A stretch of 10,048 nucleotides of DNA. Origin: Stephanodiscus triporus (taxonomy: Eukaryota > Bacillariophyta > Thalassiosirophyceae > Thalassiosirales > Thalassiosiraceae). This document shows, piece by piece, positions 928 through 7,707 of this stretch; positions within the stretch are counted from its first letter, which is position 1, and every line of letters starts with the position of its first letter. The notes under the pieces are model-generated. The model saw only the letters and a list, made by a program, of their open reading frames with translations. It did no database searches and was not told the DNA's origin. Position numbers and translations under genes: made by a program. The stretch covers positions 1-10,048 of the forward strand of contig JALLAZ010001145.1 in the NCBI GenBank assembly GCA_036939755.1. The letters run 5' to 3'.

Positions 928-3085
928 ATGGCAACAAAGGTTGGGGACGAAGTAGAGCTCGCAACTGTCACAGAGGAGGACGATGCCGAGGAACTTTCAC
1001 TGATCGGGCTATCATCCCCGGAAAGATGCCGGCTTTCGAGGCCGTTGGGATCAGCCTCGAGGTGGGACAACGCGTTGAGCCCAATCAAGCGCTACAAGGC
1101 AAAAATTGAGGGAATATTATACAGGGGACAAACGCACATTTCGTCCTCGAGTTTGTTGGGGTCGTCGCCCGACGGATCGAGCTCCACAACGCGACATTTG
1201 GTCTGCCTCGCGATCGTGTTCGTGGTGCTGCTCGCGGGCGTCTTCCATCTTGGACGGCTGGAGGCGAAGAAAGAGGTCGGCGGGGGGGGGATCGATGCGT
1301 ATGACGTGGGGAAAGCGAAGTCGAAGTCAAAGGTCGGTGCCTTCACCCGGGGGCATCTTGAGGCCACCAGGGTGGAGGCCAATAAGGTACTGACGTTGCT
1401 CGAGGAGTACTATTTCGGCAAGGATAAGGCTTACGATATGTTGATGAAATCGTGGCTCGATCCCTGGGAGTTCGACGAAGTGCATTGGCCGGAGAAACAC
1501 GAACGCAACGCCAAGCTGGTAGATACTCTTGCCCGTGCTCTCGTTACAGATGAACAAAAGACGTTCCTGGTGGGCGCGATCGGATCCTCCGTCATGGCGG
1601 GTCATGACAATTGTCACTACGATAGCTACCAGGCTCAGATGGAGCGTCTCTGGCAGCCCGTGTGGGAGGCTGCGGGGATGAATTTCGTGTTCCAGAATGC
1701 AGGGGAGGGGGGAGGGTGCGGTGATAGCTTTCAAAACCAGGGATTTTGCATCACGCAGAACGTTTCTCCTAATGTTGATATAGGTACGTGATCACATAAT
1801 ATGAAGATATGGTGTGTGCATACAGCATTTGTGGCCGCTCACTTGCTACCGTATTTCCTTCTTTCAGTCCATTGGTCTTGGACCTATTTCGGTGAACCCT
1901 CAAAGGAGGTGGAAGCTTTGGTAAGGTGGACGCAATTGTTGCCGAAGCAACCCCCTGTTCACCAATTCAACGCTGGTAACATCCCCGGTGGCGAATCTCA
2001 ATTGGCGAAACACTACGCTAAATACTGTATTAACTGCTTCTACATGCGTACGGCATTTGAGAATGGTGGTCATGACTTCGAATCGGAGAGGAATCGGGCG
2101 GTCGATCCATTTGATAGATTCGGTTGGGGTTATGTAGGTGATGGATACCACAACACGACGAGGTATGGCGAGCGAGAGACCGACGACGTGCGCAAAAACA
2201 GTCTTGGCGTTGTGATGAGAAATTGGGTGAGATACCCTATTACGTTCTTTTGTGTGATCATGGCATGTGGTCATCCTAACCTTACTTTTTTCACTGTAAA
2301 ATCTTACAAATTTATAGCATCCTGGCCCTATGGGCTTTCAGATTACGTCTGATGCATTTACATATGTGTACACCCAAGCACTTTTGATTGCTCTGGATCT
2401 GATCGAGACGGATATGAATGATGGAAAGGATCCTCGAGATACATGGTCGGCATCTAAGCGCCAACCTCTTTTGAAGACCGATCTCCCTGCTCCAATTTTG
2501 TGTGATCCGGAGTATTGTGTTGTTGATGAACCTCCCAAATGCCTCAACTTTGAATTACCGACGTTTGGTAAACCGGGTGCAAGTGTTGAGGACCCAGGTG
2601 ACGAATTAAATCCGTACAAAGACCACTACCAGAACTGGACTGTTTGGCATGCGCCTAACGATCTATGGTATATGGTCGACCAAGACGACATATCATTCTT
2701 TCAACATCGCCCTGAGAAGGACATATGCCGTCATTTGGATGCTTGTGGAGGAATTTCTGCTCAAAGTGTTAACGATGGCATGGTGGTATTTCGCCTTCCA
2801 AAAATGTCTGTGGGACTTGTAATTATCTGTGGAATGAGTGAGGGGAGGTCAGCTGCCGAAATGTTCATCAACAATACAGCAATTGAAATCAGCTACAATA
2901 CTGTGCCTGTGAATCCCGAGGAAATGGATATTTACCCTTGGGCCGGCAAGTGCACCCGTGTTATGAAGCGATTTCCAACGTCTGGTCGACAGTCAGAGAC
3001 GCCCACTGGGCATGCATATTTGGCCGTTAATGTAGTGGCCGACATGGAAAAACCGTTCCTGATTACTCAAGTAATCACACTTTGA
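928..3085 (+). CDS. Membrane-anchored SGNH-hydrolase-like protein, three exons
   Basis: Exons 928-1783, 1868-2226 and 2318-3085 join in frame to give 660 residues. The ATG sits in ACCATGG and is the first in-frame ATG after a stop at 829-831. Residues 1-90 are polar. A hydrophobic stretch at about 91-110 (VCLAIVFVVLLAGVF) suggests a type II membrane anchor, placing the rest outside the cell or in a lumen. The SGNH blocks are IGSSVMAGHD (nucleophile probably S221), QNAGEGGG (G259) and WHPGP (H406). Residue 403 is Arg, so the usual Asp three before the catalytic His is missing. The ectodomain is Cys-rich and has N-x-T sequons at N381, N511 and N590. The C-terminal ~130 residues look beta-rich and may be an accessory domain. 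SGNH enzymes are typically esterases or lipases; the substrate here is unknown. A run of nine G at 1282-1290 lies in exon 1, but the frame is coherent on both sides. I associate this family with diatoms. Confidence 0.85.
1784..1867 (+). other. Intron 1 of the SGNH-like gene (84 bp)
   Basis: Donor GTACGT follows NVDI; acceptor TTTCAG precedes the exon that continues HWSWTYFGEP. It splits a Val codon after its first base (phase 1). An in-frame stop lies inside the unspliced reading, and splicing restores a continuous SGNH-type sequence. Confidence 0.85.
2227..2317 (+). other. Intron 2 of the SGNH-like gene (91 bp)
   Basis: Donor GTGAGA directly follows the codons for RNW; acceptor TTATAG precedes HPGPMGFQ. 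It is a phase 0 intron that joins the WHPGP block holding the presumed catalytic His. The unspliced frame would read on to a stop at 2350-2352 and lose the C-terminal third. Confidence 0.85.
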
Positions 3086-3110
3086 TGAAAGCTTATTAGA
3101 CGGGCAGAGG

Positions 3111-3116
3111 AATAAA
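3111..3116 (+). promoter_or_regulatory. Candidate polyadenylation signal AATAAA
   Basis: AATAAA lies 25 nt after the stop codon of the SGNH-like gene. Position and sequence suit a polyadenylation signal, although algal genes often lack a strict hexamer. Confidence 0.35.
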
Positions 3117-3593
3117 ATTTAATCAACCATCGCCTGTTGAGTCTTGATTGTTATTGCCACAGTGATGTATTTACATTTATTATTGATTCTACCTAGAGTA
3201 GTCAATAACTGCCATCTCACATCCTTAAACTTACATCACAAAAGCCTGAACAAAAACTGTGTAAGAGGTCTACGTAAAAAATACTCTACTCTAGGAGGTC
3301 TTATCGTAGTATCGTACCCTACCTATGGTAGATACCTACTCTATCATTTTTTTAGAGTACATGACAAGGGCACCAACAAGCAAGGGGAGTTTTGTACTCC
3401 TATGTATTTTGGTCTGTCCTTTTCCCATCCGTAACTACGATACACAAACCTCTCTCAGTCCATCATAACTGGAGATTGCTCCCGATACAATACACGGACC
3501 GCATTGTCCCTCTTCCTTCCTCTCGCGCGGATCGGCCATTTTAAAGGAGTGTAATCCTTGAAAATTTGCGCCAGTGGACAGTTTGACGGACGG
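3117..3593. other. Intergenic stretch with a TACTCTA/TAGAGTA cluster and small hairpins
   Basis: No gene is supported here. TACTCTA occurs at 3282-3288, 3287-3293 (overlapping) and 3337-3343, and its complement TAGAGTA at 3194-3200 and 3353-3359. The pair 3337-3343 and 3353-3359 could form a 7-bp stem with a 9-nt T-rich loop. TTATTGA at 3180-3186 and TCAATAA at 3202-3208 form another small inverted repeat. The stretch must contain the 3' UTR end of the upstream gene and the promoter and 5' UTR of the nuclease-ATPase gene. An ORF at 3144-3434 has no ATG-supported or protein-like character. Confidence 0.6.
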
Positions 3594-3719
3594 ATGTGCT
3601 TGTTCAAATATAATGATGCACCCTCTTCAAATCTTCTCGGTCTGCTACAATTAATGATATTCATTAATATCGCGACATCGTTTCAATTTTCATGCATCTT
3701 CCACCATCGACGATCTTCA
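3594..3719 (+). other. Bipartite plastid presequence coding region
   Basis: Translation from 3594 gives a hydrophobic core (LLGLLQLMIFINIATS, residues 14-29) followed by FQFSCIFHHRRSSS, free of acidic residues and rich in Ser, His and Arg. A signal peptide with Phe at the +1 position of cleavage and a basic hydroxylated transit peptide is the known hallmark of diatom plastid import (the ASAFAP-type motif). A start at the second Met (3654) would leave too short a hydrophobic stretch. Targeting is inferred from sequence only. Confidence 0.6.
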
Positions 3720-6700
3720 TCCCCGCTTCATCGATGTACGCCTCATACTGTTATATGGTCATCGTCGCCTCCACCTCACTTTCAAGTGGGGGAGGAGGTG
3801 ATGGTCGTGGATGATGACGGTGCAGCACATAGCGCTGGAGTGATAGAACAGAAACGGGGCGGATGGTATACCCTCCGAATGAGGGACTCCAGTTTGATGA
3901 AACGGCGGGGATCTCAGTTGCAAAGGAATAAAGTTGCTCGCCCTATCAATGGAGGATCACAACGTAATTCTCGAGGTGCAGATTCACTGGGGAATGCTGA
4001 GTCGTCATTGGCAACATCTGCAAACATAGTAGATCTTGACGCCATCTTGCAATCAATGCATCAGAAACATTCCACACGACAATGCATCACTACCAAAAAC
4101 CAAACAACCTTAGAAACCCTCCATCAAGTCACGAGCTGCCACTCACAATACAATCGTTGGCTAATATTCTCTGACTTACACGTTATGCCCTCCACTCTCT
4201 CAACATGCCTCCAGGTACTTGACACAGTACACAATACTGCGGTCCACTTCAATTCTGGGATAATATTTCTGGGGGACTTCTGGCATCACCGTGGTTTTGT
4301 CAGAGTTGACTGTTTGAACGCCATTTTGCATGCACTGGAAACATGGGAAGTTCCAAGTATTATGATTCCGGGAAATCATGATCAAATTGATTGGAGAGGC
4401 TTTGAGCATGCCTTGACTCCATTGAGCAACGCGTATCGCATTTATTCGCCAAATGAAGTTCGTGGGACTATCCCACCTAAACAATATTCTGGTCCACTCA
4501 TAATATCGCATCCTACAAAATTTCTGAATGCATTGTTCATTCCTCATATACGCGACAAGGAGACGATGAAATCGATATTATCGTCGAACGAAACAGCCTC
4601 TTCCTCTGCATTATTTGTCCATGCCGACGTCAAGGGAGCGTCGATGAATGATCTCATGCCATCACAGCATGGATTATCAGCATTGGTCTTTCCAGCAAAT
4701 AAACACGTTTATTCAGGACACTTCCACAAGCCTCATGTGATTAATGTTGGAAAGAAGTCATCAACCTGCACATCAATACGTTATGTTGGAAGTCCCTATC
4801 AAACATCCTTCTCAGAGTCGGGGCAGGTCAAGTCTCTACTTCTAGTAGATTCCAAAAGAGATTGGCAATGCATCGAAGAAATACCAATTGATATTGGCCC
4901 GAGGTATCACCGTGTTTCTTCGGTGCATCATTTTTTAGACTTTAATAGAGCAAACGTCCGCAAAGGAGATAAAGTTGCCGTGACGATCAAGCCGCAGGAC
5001 TTGGAAGACATCAGGATTCTTTCCGGAAAAGAGCAGGCGGCAACAGTAGAAAACTCTCCATTTAAAGTCAGATTGGAAGAGTTTCGACAGTCAGGGATTT
5101 CGGTCGAACTTAGGGACCTCAAACCACAAGAGGAACTTGAGGAGGCATTCCAGGCAGGAATATCATCGTCTGGGGGTGGAGAAATAATAGAGTTAGAAGA
5201 TCTGTCTCCCAAGACTATTCTTGCGGCATACCTCGATAGTGAAGTTAGTCGTTCCGGGTTAGGAGAAACCATGGCAAAGAGGCTTTTGGAATCTGGTGAA
5301 ATACTACTTAGAGAAGCAAAAGACGTCGATACCAATAAAGGCGATAGTTCGCTCTTCGTAAATTCTCCAACCGAGTTGGATATAGAGTCGGTATCTGTGC
5401 TGGGGTTCGGGTCGTTTCGCCAAGAGGTCGTCTATCCACTGAGAAATCGTGGGGTTTTACTACTCAGGGGCACCAACAAAGATGATATTGGATCAGATAG
5501 GTGAGGTGATTTACTTTTTATTGCTGTTATTCTTCAGTCTTCAATCTTATGCCGCGTCGTTTTGCCACTGATGAAGTAATGGTGTAGGTAAGTCTACGTT
5601 GGCGATGGCCCCCCTTTGGGCACTATCCGGATCTTTAGACCCACGTCCTACACAAGATGGAAGAGTCGCAGACGTTGTCAATGACTTCAGTGACTTGAGT
5701 CAAGTTACAATTCGTGGATCCATTAACACCAAGCCATTTCTTGTAAAGAGAACCAAAAGCGCATCCGCTAAAAATTCCTCGCTCACTTTCGTATTGGACG
5801 GAAAAGCTCTGACTCGACAATCAATCCAAGGTACACAGGAATTGCTTGACCAGTATTTCAGCACTGGATCATTAATGAGAACTATCTTTCACGGACAGCA
5901 CACGATCGGTGGCTTGTTGGAATCTACTGATGCAAAGCTTAAAGAGGAATTGTCATACCTTGTATCACTAGATATATGGCAGAAATCAGCTTCCCTTGCC
6001 CGATTGAAACAGCGCGAACTATTGCGGAAAACCGCGGAGGTGGAAGGTATGCTTTCAATAAGAGAAAAGGATAAATTACAAGCGCAGGGGAAAACTCTGA
6101 TGGCAAAAGAAGAGATGAAAAGAAGAGAAGCGATTCTTGAGAGCGAACGTCAAGTACTGTCACAAAAGGAACAATGTTTCTCTGACGATTCAGTTACCCC
6201 TGATGTCGAAACAGCTATGGATTCAGTGCAAACTCAAATGAATGAATGCGAGAGTGAAATCGACCGTTTAGAAAAGGAGGCGTCAAAATCTCTGGACTCG
6301 GACAATGATGGGATAAATACGCTCAGGTCCCAGTTAAACGAAAAGGCTGCAAAAGAAAGCAATGCAAAGTCGAACCTACAAGCTTGCCAGCGTAATCATG
6401 AAATAGCATCGATGGAGCTTATGTCCGCTGAGAGTCGATTGCGCAATCTTCAGTCCGAGTGGAATGTTAGCACGAGTATGAATGACGATTCTTCTTCATT
6501 TTCGTCGCCAGAGACATGCCACGCTTGTGGTCAGCCAATTGTATCGAAAGTTACGCAGGAGCATGTACGAGAAAATATCATTGATATGCTGTCTAATGCA
6601 ACGCATCACAAAGACAAGGCTTGTGAAAAAGTCTCTTTAACCGCAAAAGCACTCGCTGAAGCGAAGAAAGAAGTGGCTGGCGTAAATTTGGAGGTACAGT

Positions 6701-7584
6701 CATGCATGGAACGGCTCCGCACGGCGGAAGTGAAGAGTTCACTTAGATCTGACAGCCTACTTCAAAAAATCAAAGAAACTCGGAAGATTCAAGCGGAGTT
6801 GTCAAAAGACTTTGCCACCCTTGCCAGAAAGGCGAAAGAAGTTTCTGAGTTCAATCTTCTCATTTCTCGCATGCAGACACACCTGCATGGGCTGAAAGAA
6901 TCCTTAAAAGCTTCTGTCACCGCCCATGAGAGTTGCTGCACCGATCTGGAAGCGATCGAATCTAACATTGAAGAGCTGAAAGGAGATAGAGAGCGCGCAA
7001 GAGACTCATCTTCTCTCAACGCATTGTTGGCAGATACATTCGGACCAAAAGGAGTGCAGGCATTCGTCCTTCGCAATGTAGTTCAATCGCTTCAACACTG
7101 CTCGCAGGCATATTTGGATGAACTGAGTGATGGATCATTGCAATTGCGTATGCAAGTTGGCTCAAACGATAGCATACTCAAACAAGCTGCCGTTCGTAAT
7201 CCTGACGGGACTTGGCGTGTACGGCCTTTGTCTTCGTTGTCGGGTGGTCAATGGAGAAGGTGTTCTCTGTCCCTTAGCCTGGGTTATATTGATTTGGCAT
7301 CCAAGCGGGGGAGGATGAGAAGCTCCTTGTTGGTGTTGGATGAGCCACTCACTCACCTCGATTCGGCAGGCCGTAAAAGTGTTGGAGAGCTCCTACGTAA
7401 AATGCTGAGCCAGGCCTGTGATATTGGAAAGACTGGGAGAGGAAGTTTTGCTCTGTCAACTATTCTCGTCATCCTACAAGAAATTGCCGCTGAAGAAATT
7501 GAAGAATGTTTTGACCAAACTGACGAAGTTATCAAACTTGGAGGAGAGAGCTTTGTCATTCTCGATGAGAATCACAAGGAATGA
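3594..7584 (+). CDS. Fused SbcD/Mre11-type nuclease and SbcC/Rad50-type ATPase, probably plastid-targeted, two exons
   Basis: Exons 3594-5500 and 5577-7584 give 1304 residues; the ATG is the first in frame after a TAA at 3552-3554. Residues 1-29 form a signal peptide ending ATS, then F30 and a basic Ser/His-rich stretch, as in diatom plastid presequences. Residues ~63-110 look Tudor/SH3-like. The phosphoesterase has FSDLH (D194, H196), GDFWH (D228), GNHD (N261), VHAD (H343) and GHFH (H376, H378), the complete Mre11-type metal-ligand set. From ~594 comes an ABC ATPase: SNGVGKST (K641), Q-loop Q743, coiled coil, CHAC zinc hook (C950, C953), second coiled coil, LSGGQ (1190-1194), VLDEP (D1224, E1225) and D-loop D1231. 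SbcCD and Mre11-Rad50 use ATP-driven clamping to cut DNA ends and hairpins; plastid DNA repair or replication is inferred here. Normally two chains, these modules are fused. The coiled-coil arms are short, about 200 residues each. A typical C-terminal H-loop His is not seen (Q1270). Confidence 0.92.
5501..5576 (+). other. Intron of the nuclease-ATPase gene (76 bp), splitting the P-loop
   Basis: Donor GTGAGG follows exon 1 ending GATCAGATAG; acceptor ATGAAG precedes TAATGGTGTAGG. Joining gives an AG|T serine codon (phase 2) and the reading GSD-SNGVGKSTLAMAPLWAL, an intact Walker A. Unspliced, exon 1 stops at 5502-5504 and the downstream frame would have to begin after the P-loop, so the intron is required for a functional ATPase. 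Confidence 0.9.
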
Positions 7585-7707
7585 GCTCATTCCGTGTGAC
7601 CATACTTAATTGAAGTTTGACATGCATTGAATTGTGTTTTGCATCATCCTAGTTCATTCAATCCTTTGTGAAGAGTATTAACGATCGTCACAATATGCAT
7701 TTTGACT
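7585..7707. other. Probable 3' UTR of the nuclease-ATPase gene
   Basis: This A/T-rich stretch after the stop has no AATAAA and no coding character. It is assigned by position only. Confidence 0.4.

Follow-up and report, generated by a model that had tools for sequence, protein, structure and literature searches.

Thirteen proteins in which Mre11 and Rad50 are fused were reported by Yoshida, Claverie and Ogata in 2011 (PMC3175470). According to the main text of that paper, they occur in Phaeodactylum (B7FXD6), Micromonas and Physcomitrella, in Mimivirus (R555), in Bacillus phage 0305phi8-36 and on Clostridium and Deferribacter plasmids, and the cellular hosts, Deferribacter excepted, also have canonical Mre11 and Rad50 as distinct proteins. 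In the fusions, the order of the domains and the linker are compatible with the known complex, and a viral origin was proposed (PMC3175470). In a word search of the same main text the terms plastid, chloroplast, transit and targeting did not occur, nor did Tudor, SH3, H-loop, switch, intron or signal peptide.

Here we describe a further member of this known class, encoded in a window of 10,048 nucleotides of DNA from the diatom Stephanodiscus triporus (the whole stretch that was analysed). As in the fusions of Yoshida and colleagues, a metallophosphoesterase is followed by a Rad50-type ATPase in one chain. A sequence-only reading of this DNA had set the fusion against SbcD/SbcC and Mre11/Rad50 as normally separate proteins, which overstated the case: diatom, green algal, moss, Mimivirus, phage and plasmid fusions have been on record since 2011 (PMC3175470). 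The present additions are a Tudor-like domain, a split at the H-loop, a conserved intron and leader statistics; the accompanying literature search covered fused Mre11-Rad50 proteins, where they act, and the H-loop of Rad50.

Spliced translation of positions 3594–7584 gives one SbcD(Mre11)-SbcC(Rad50) fusion of 1304 residues, with its ATG at 3594 and a stop codon ending at 7584; all features given here lie on the plus strand. The raw DNA holds two long open frames, 3555–5504 and 5575–7584. Exon 1 (3594–5500) encodes the presequence, the Tudor-like domain, the Mre11/SbcD-type nuclease with its capping domain, a helix-loop-helix and the start of the ATPase lobe, while exon 2 (5577–7584) encodes the Rad50/SbcC-type ATPase lobes, coiled coil and zinc hook. 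Between them, a 76-nt GT-AG intron in phase 2 (5501–5576) splits the Ser codon of DSNGVGKST, the Walker A sequence. When introns running from GT or GC to AG were tried, with donors at 5441–5530 and acceptors up to 5600, four kept the frame open and DSNGVGKST was restored by 5501–5576 alone; introns 5449–5587 and 5454–5592 (GT-AG) and 5470–5587 (GC-AG) kept the frame open but lost part of Walker A.

The location of the two halves in separate ORFs of the raw DNA might suggest that two adjacent genes had been joined wrongly. We regard this as extremely improbable and reject it at the sequence level, given that the intron lies inside Walker A, which would leave a second gene without a full P-loop, and that most homologues are fused. 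By motif scan, 94 of the 114 homologues from the first homology search combine GNHD/E and Walker A with the ABC signature (the signature is missing from 15 and GNHD from 5), and three named MMETSP transcriptome proteins (P0002, P0032 and P0059) span both halves. Reading exon 1 of the window into its intron leads to a stop at ...GSDR, and six of the 15 signature-less homologues, all nuclease-only, stop at or near the same splice site: P0104, P0108 and P0109 end at ...SDR, which is the donor stop, and P0105, P0110 and P0111 continue 9 to 25 residues past the donor. The Walker A intron is thus conserved and accounts for apparent half genes. The sequence-only reading had claimed one polypeptide with a complete nuclease and a complete ATPase, and had proposed that homologues consistently found as two genes would indicate a mis-joined model; the single chain is borne out and survives that test, and the motif positions given at the time are exact in the spliced product.

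The nuclease half, consisting of a Mre11/SbcD phosphoesterase and capping domain, occupies 4140–5129 (about residues 183–512). All Mre11/SbcD metal ligands (DxH, GDxxH/D, GNHD, H and GHxH) are present in the spliced product, as D194xH196, GD228, GN261H262D, H343 and GH376xH378. Pfam Metallophos matches residues 190–379 above its cut-off and the best family match is to SbcD-like proteins in PHROGs (2.8e-27); the NCBIfam SbcD models (PRK10966, TIGR00619) score far below cut-off, at 31.7 versus 450 bits. In an AF2 model of a construct covering residues 60–635, two helices (480–493 and 499–521 of the construct; about residues 539–580, positions 5208–5333) were placed as the Rad50-binding helix-loop-helix of Mre11, an element also seen in the P0065 model, and a short low-confidence linker joins it to the ATPase. 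The prediction is thus of a Mre11 fold with both capping domain and helix-loop-helix, and Mn-dependent exo/endonuclease action is putative on this basis. A Mre11-type helix-loop-helix remains in the prediction, so the changed position of the nuclease on the ATPase heads that had been suggested from the sequence is not implied; similarly, fusion does fix a 1:1 stoichiometry but does not alter it, since the 2:2 complex is already 1:1.

In the ATPase half, we located the Walker A core NGVGKST (5578–5598; residues 637–643, with GVGKS at 638–642), the Q-loop Gln743 (5896–5898), the zinc-hook CHAC (6517–6528; residues 950–953, C950HAC953), the ABC signature LSGGQ (7237–7251; residues 1190–1194) and the Walker B sequence LLVLDEP (7327–7347; residues 1220–1226, with LDEP from 1223); the CxxC hook lies between coiled coils, as judged from the P0065 model. 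The best family match is to SbcC-like proteins in PHROGs (1.6e-42), with Pfam AAA_23 slightly under cut-off, SMC_N far under and NCBIfam SbcC (TIGR00618) far below, at 26.1 versus 478.5 bits. The Pfam and PHROGs matches indicate that the motifs of the two halves did not arise by coincidence. AlphaFold models of the two halves agree with the folds of Mre11/SbcD and Rad50/SbcC. In an alignment of 183 proteins of at least 1000 aa, window included, the letters present are invariant at D194, H196, D228, N261, H262, H343, H376 and H378 of the nuclease and at K641, S1191, D1224 and E1225 of the ATPase, with gaps in 0 to 8 rows per site. The Q-loop Gln is found in 179 of the 183, and both hook cysteines in 182, the exception being a gap.

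The H-loop departs from this pattern: in C-terminal alignments, Gln1270 (7477–7479) stands in place of the histidine of Rad50/SbcC. Histidine aligns at this position in three Rad50 structure sequences, and the ordinary Rad50 of the same genome retains it (...LVVITHDE...). We aligned 327 of 364 C-termini, having set aside 18 proteins and 19 viral ORFs that lacked the signature pattern by which the C-termini were cut, and found Gln in 175, His in 148 and a gap in 4. Every scored organism-named protein has Gln, with readable names from algae, mosses, liverworts and one lycophyte; some of these names were read from locus prefixes that we take to be those of Chlorokybus, Mesostigma, Spirogloea and Tetraselmis. 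The His rows comprise every scored IMG/VR ORF (38, of which 27 distinct), 104 compact proteins of 992–1071 aa and six P0107-type fusions. ATP hydrolysis may be weak given that the histidine, proposed to promote hydrolysis in Rad50 (PMC4762649), is missing, and the Gln–His division would fit a mainly DNA-bridging or end-sensing ATPase with weak cutting or hydrolysis. We consider such an enzyme improbable, as the nuclease ligands, Walker A Lys, Walker B Asp/Glu and signature are all retained, and as yeast Smc4 has a natural H-loop Gln1377 in a condensin that, in its wild-type form, hydrolyses ATP (PMC6039025); an H-loop Gln therefore need not mean a dead ATPase. The ATPase of the fusion is a derived relative that would work like Rad50 and is non-canonical in its missing H-loop histidine. 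The split between Gln in the algal type and His in the phage-type relatives and the genome's own Rad50 amounts to a natural experiment on the role of this residue in Rad50-type ATPases.

Upstream of the nuclease, the AF2 model and Foldseek indicate a five-strand, Tudor-like beta barrel at 3795–3926 (about residues 68–111; strands at 9–52 of the 60–635 construct). Foldseek matched the Tudor domains of PHF1, PHF19, PHF20 and Pcl over about 50–57 columns; for isolated Tudor domains the target TM was 0.69–0.86, yet E was just 0.008–0.02, and the matches are taken to lie on the barrel. A sequence profile gave no significant match in the PDB. Among proteins sorted into groups of our own, drawn from three search lists, a family HMM built from ten copies of the barrel matched 90 of the 105 ochrophyte-type proteins in which 60 aa or more precede the nuclease. 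This group numbers 123 in all, and as many as ten of the 90 matched proteins had served to train the HMM. There was no match among 55 green-type proteins (from a group of 74; best E 0.07) or among 105 other proteins, all without such an N-terminal extension.

Diatom plastid proteins are targeted by a signal peptide with F, W or Y right after its cleavage site, followed by a basic, low-acid stretch. By our own heuristic, the window's protein has this motif. A predicted signal peptide (3594–3680; residues 1–29) ends in ...FINIATS^F, where ^ marks the cleavage site, and a basic, Ser-rich stretch at 3681–3779 (residues 30–62) reads as transit-peptide-like. The predicted cleavage context, LLQLMIFINIATS^FQFSC, puts F at +1, and the 77% identical homologue P0001 has a matching LLQLMILVPIASS^F. 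We then applied a leader test to 124 entries, including P0107, which is not ochrophyte-type and was excluded by the test; 59 were eligible, in that they began with Met and carried the barrel with 25 or more residues ahead of it. A hydrophobic stretch was present in 38 of these 59 N-termini, and F/W/Y after a small residue in 23, compared with 7.6% of 5900 shuffles; by the same heuristic the plastid motif is absent from 36. Plastid targeting thus appears likely for the window's protein and is not uniform across the family, so that the plastid presequence proposed earlier holds as an organelle-type presequence with a plastid motif here but does not extend to all relatives (23/59).

The same enzyme may instead act in mitochondria, or in both organelles, which we judge unlikely. 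In several homologues (P0039, P0054, P0058 and P0085) the presequence is short and basic and the leader test detected no hydrophobic stretch, the first three looking mitochondrial by eye, and the extensions of green members are rich in Arg, Ser and Ala, with a destination that is unreadable by eye. Against this, the leaders of the window's protein and its nearest relatives contain a hydrophobic segment that terminates in S^F, of the secondary-plastid type, and P0059, derived from a transcript, extends the shorter gene model P0065 by such a leader (VVG^W). Our literature search, which reached few subscription papers, returned no localisation study of the fused protein.

The sequence-only reading had envisaged an organellar machine apart from the nuclear complex, and this genome does encode an ordinary Rad50 in addition to the fusion. 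A profile search found five exon matches to this Rad50 on contig C303 (best 7.7e-31), all below a curated cut-off that is set for whole proteins. A separate canonical Mre11 was not found, in searches where controls were detected in 10 of 14 cases and, in a second search, in 0; with an assembly of 21.65 Mb in 1324 contigs, this absence means little. Six of six surveyed diatoms are listed with separate Rad50 and Mre11 (PMC4647503). Other ATPase loci in the genome appeared by eye to be SMC5-like (L001), SMC6-like (L002) and SMC2-like (L004), and a further one, L005, shares contig C303 with Rad50.

The nearest named relative is from Cyclostephanos tholiformis (77% identity over residues 185–1304). 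Relatives were found in diatoms, brown algae, Tribonema, Triparma, many green algae, streptophyte algae, mosses, liverworts and the lycophyte Diphasiastrum, with full-length examples in diatoms, brown algae, Ostreococcus and Physcomitrium; seed plants were absent among the matches listed (114 of 114, 120 of 189 and 120 of 202). On the viral side, contig L018 carries an unfused SbcD/SbcC-type pair whose genes overlap by 4 nt (ATGA) and adjoin ORFs that by eye are RecA/UvsX-, SSB-, primase- and RuvC-like; the best-matching segments of the pair share 38 and 40% identity with the P0148 fusion, and further viral contigs hold fused or split versions. Named phage records matched P0114 in 1863 cases (two over >80% of P0114) and P0148 in 572 (none over >80%), all at <60% identity, and 876 plasmid records matched P0148, none over >80%. 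Two scans of 84,980 prokaryote species, based on short motifs, gave 77 and 27 pattern matches; no match could be confirmed as related, and no bacterial or archaeal chromosomal source emerged.

Ochrophytes formed a clade in all five trees (FastTree, separate-half IQ-TREE and fused-only IQ-TREE), and the ATPase and fused-only trees united all green proteins in a single clade. A few greens stray in the nuclease trees: P0295 and P0306, as well as P0210 and P0234, which group with viral L097. The trees disagree on whether ochrophytes and greens are sisters: the nuclease IQ-TREE unites ochrophytes with nearly all greens (98.6/98, L097 inside), greens fall with phages in the ATPase IQ-TREE (88.8/87), and the fused-only tree joins P0107-type fusions to greens (97.6/97) and long-branched fused phages to ochrophytes (99.3/99). 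The full-length relatives and the shared Gln H-loop suggest that the window's protein may belong to the moss–diatom–prasinophyte fusion group, but algal monophyly was neither supported nor rejected on the fused-only tree (AU p 0.12, with just 2000 replicates). Because phage relatives occur both fused and unfused, a phage-type source is likely; the trees are compatible with one acquisition or two and with either direction of transfer. The shared Gln favours a single acquisition. We tentatively propose, at somewhat less than even odds, that a phage SbcD-SbcC entered algae and early land plants, where it was fused, adapted to organelles and altered from His to Gln at the H-loop in a change common to all of them, with a gain of the Tudor-like domain in ochrophytes. 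If so, a phage-derived organellar break-repair enzyme would stand beside an ordinary nuclear Rad50; organelles have phage-type RNA polymerases, of comparable origin.

Taken together, we favour, with a probability of roughly 0.6, a nucleus-encoded, spliced, single-chain phage-type Mre11-Rad50 (SbcD-SbcC) enzyme working in an organelle, most likely the plastid; its localisation and activity are what we infer from these data. Two chains would pair through their zinc hooks and, when ATP is bound, also through the ATPase heads, probably giving the M2R2 layout of two-gene complexes. The helix-loop-helix between the halves would rest on the root of the chain's own coiled coil, with the nuclease dimer suspended beneath the heads. 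ATP would drive the heads to close so that they can engage DNA ends, hairpins or blocked ends, and its hydrolysis would permit cutting by the nuclease, as input to organellar recombination repair. The Tudor-like domain and Gln H-loop would be accessory features, with a probable role in adjusting the binding of DNA or partners and in slowing the turnover of ATP. Fusion would guarantee co-import and co-folding of the subunits, a clear advantage when several plastid membranes are crossed. To our knowledge, resection and tethering of broken DNA in plastids are poorly known; the plastid-type leader, together with relatives from diatoms to mosses and a lycophyte, suggests a concrete candidate for plastid break repair, open to knockout in Phaeodactylum, Marchantia or Physcomitrium.

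Compared with known systems, the predicted folds and catalytic motifs are those of E. coli SbcCD and of archaeal, bacterial and eukaryotic Mre11-Rad50, which, unlike the fusion, are encoded by two genes and have the H-loop histidine in the Rad50 sequences compared. Phage SbcD/SbcC pairs (T4 gp47/gp46 type; PHROG 100 and 77) provide the best family matches for both halves; in viral contigs such as L018 they are adjacent, sometimes overlapping genes, and they differ from the fusion in being often two genes, in having no presequence in those read and in the H-loop histidine of all 38 scored ORFs. Finally, the fusions of Yoshida and colleagues share with the window's protein and its relatives the domain order, the occurrence in diatoms, green algae and mosses, the helix-loop-helix and the short linker, whereas the present set is wider and adds the leader, Tudor-like domain, H-loop and intron to what was described (PMC3175470).

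The diatom genome also carries an ordinary Rad50 gene distinct from the fused gene, recovered as several exons on the minus strand of contig C303 (about 1107-6417; matches L141-L145), and its H-loop residue is His. Histidine also occupies the H-loop of six single-chain fusions (P0107, P0148, P0239, P0292, P0293 and P0296), which have no presequence and, in the tree built from fused proteins only, cluster with proteins of green algae. Among gene models, the Cylindrotheca protein P0065 begins without a leader, while P0059, which is transcript-derived and 89% identical to it, has one, comprising a hydrophobic stretch and ending in VVG^W. Some short gene models are therefore probably truncated.

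Within the window, the fused gene is preceded on the same strand by a gene with two introns (928-3085). The first intron was placed by frame at approximately 1785-1867, and the second lies within about 2210-2341, where there are several candidate sites. In the product, a membrane-spanning segment can be made out by eye, as can a GSSVMAGH/SGNH-like stretch; searching its first 405 residues against Pfam returned no family (best 0.07). Further upstream are a 54-bp palindrome (541-594) with 27-nt arms that are 96% complementary and lack a spacer, and a MITE-like inverted repeat (719-868) whose 58-nt arms (88%) are separated by 34 nt. A short overlapping palindrome (7572-7599) spans the fused gene's stop codon.

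Compact single-chain fusions of the P0113 type measure 992-1071 aa (n = 104 scored), and many come from metagenome-type sources. The related locus L017 lies within a 79.7-kb viral contig, which carries ORFs that appeared eukaryotic-virus-like on inspection. At another viral locus, L018 (4968-8074), SbcD and SbcC are encoded by separate ORFs with a 4-nt overlap (ATGA), adjoined by RecA/UvsX-, SSB- and RuvC-like ORFs; this pair plausibly represents an unfused form.
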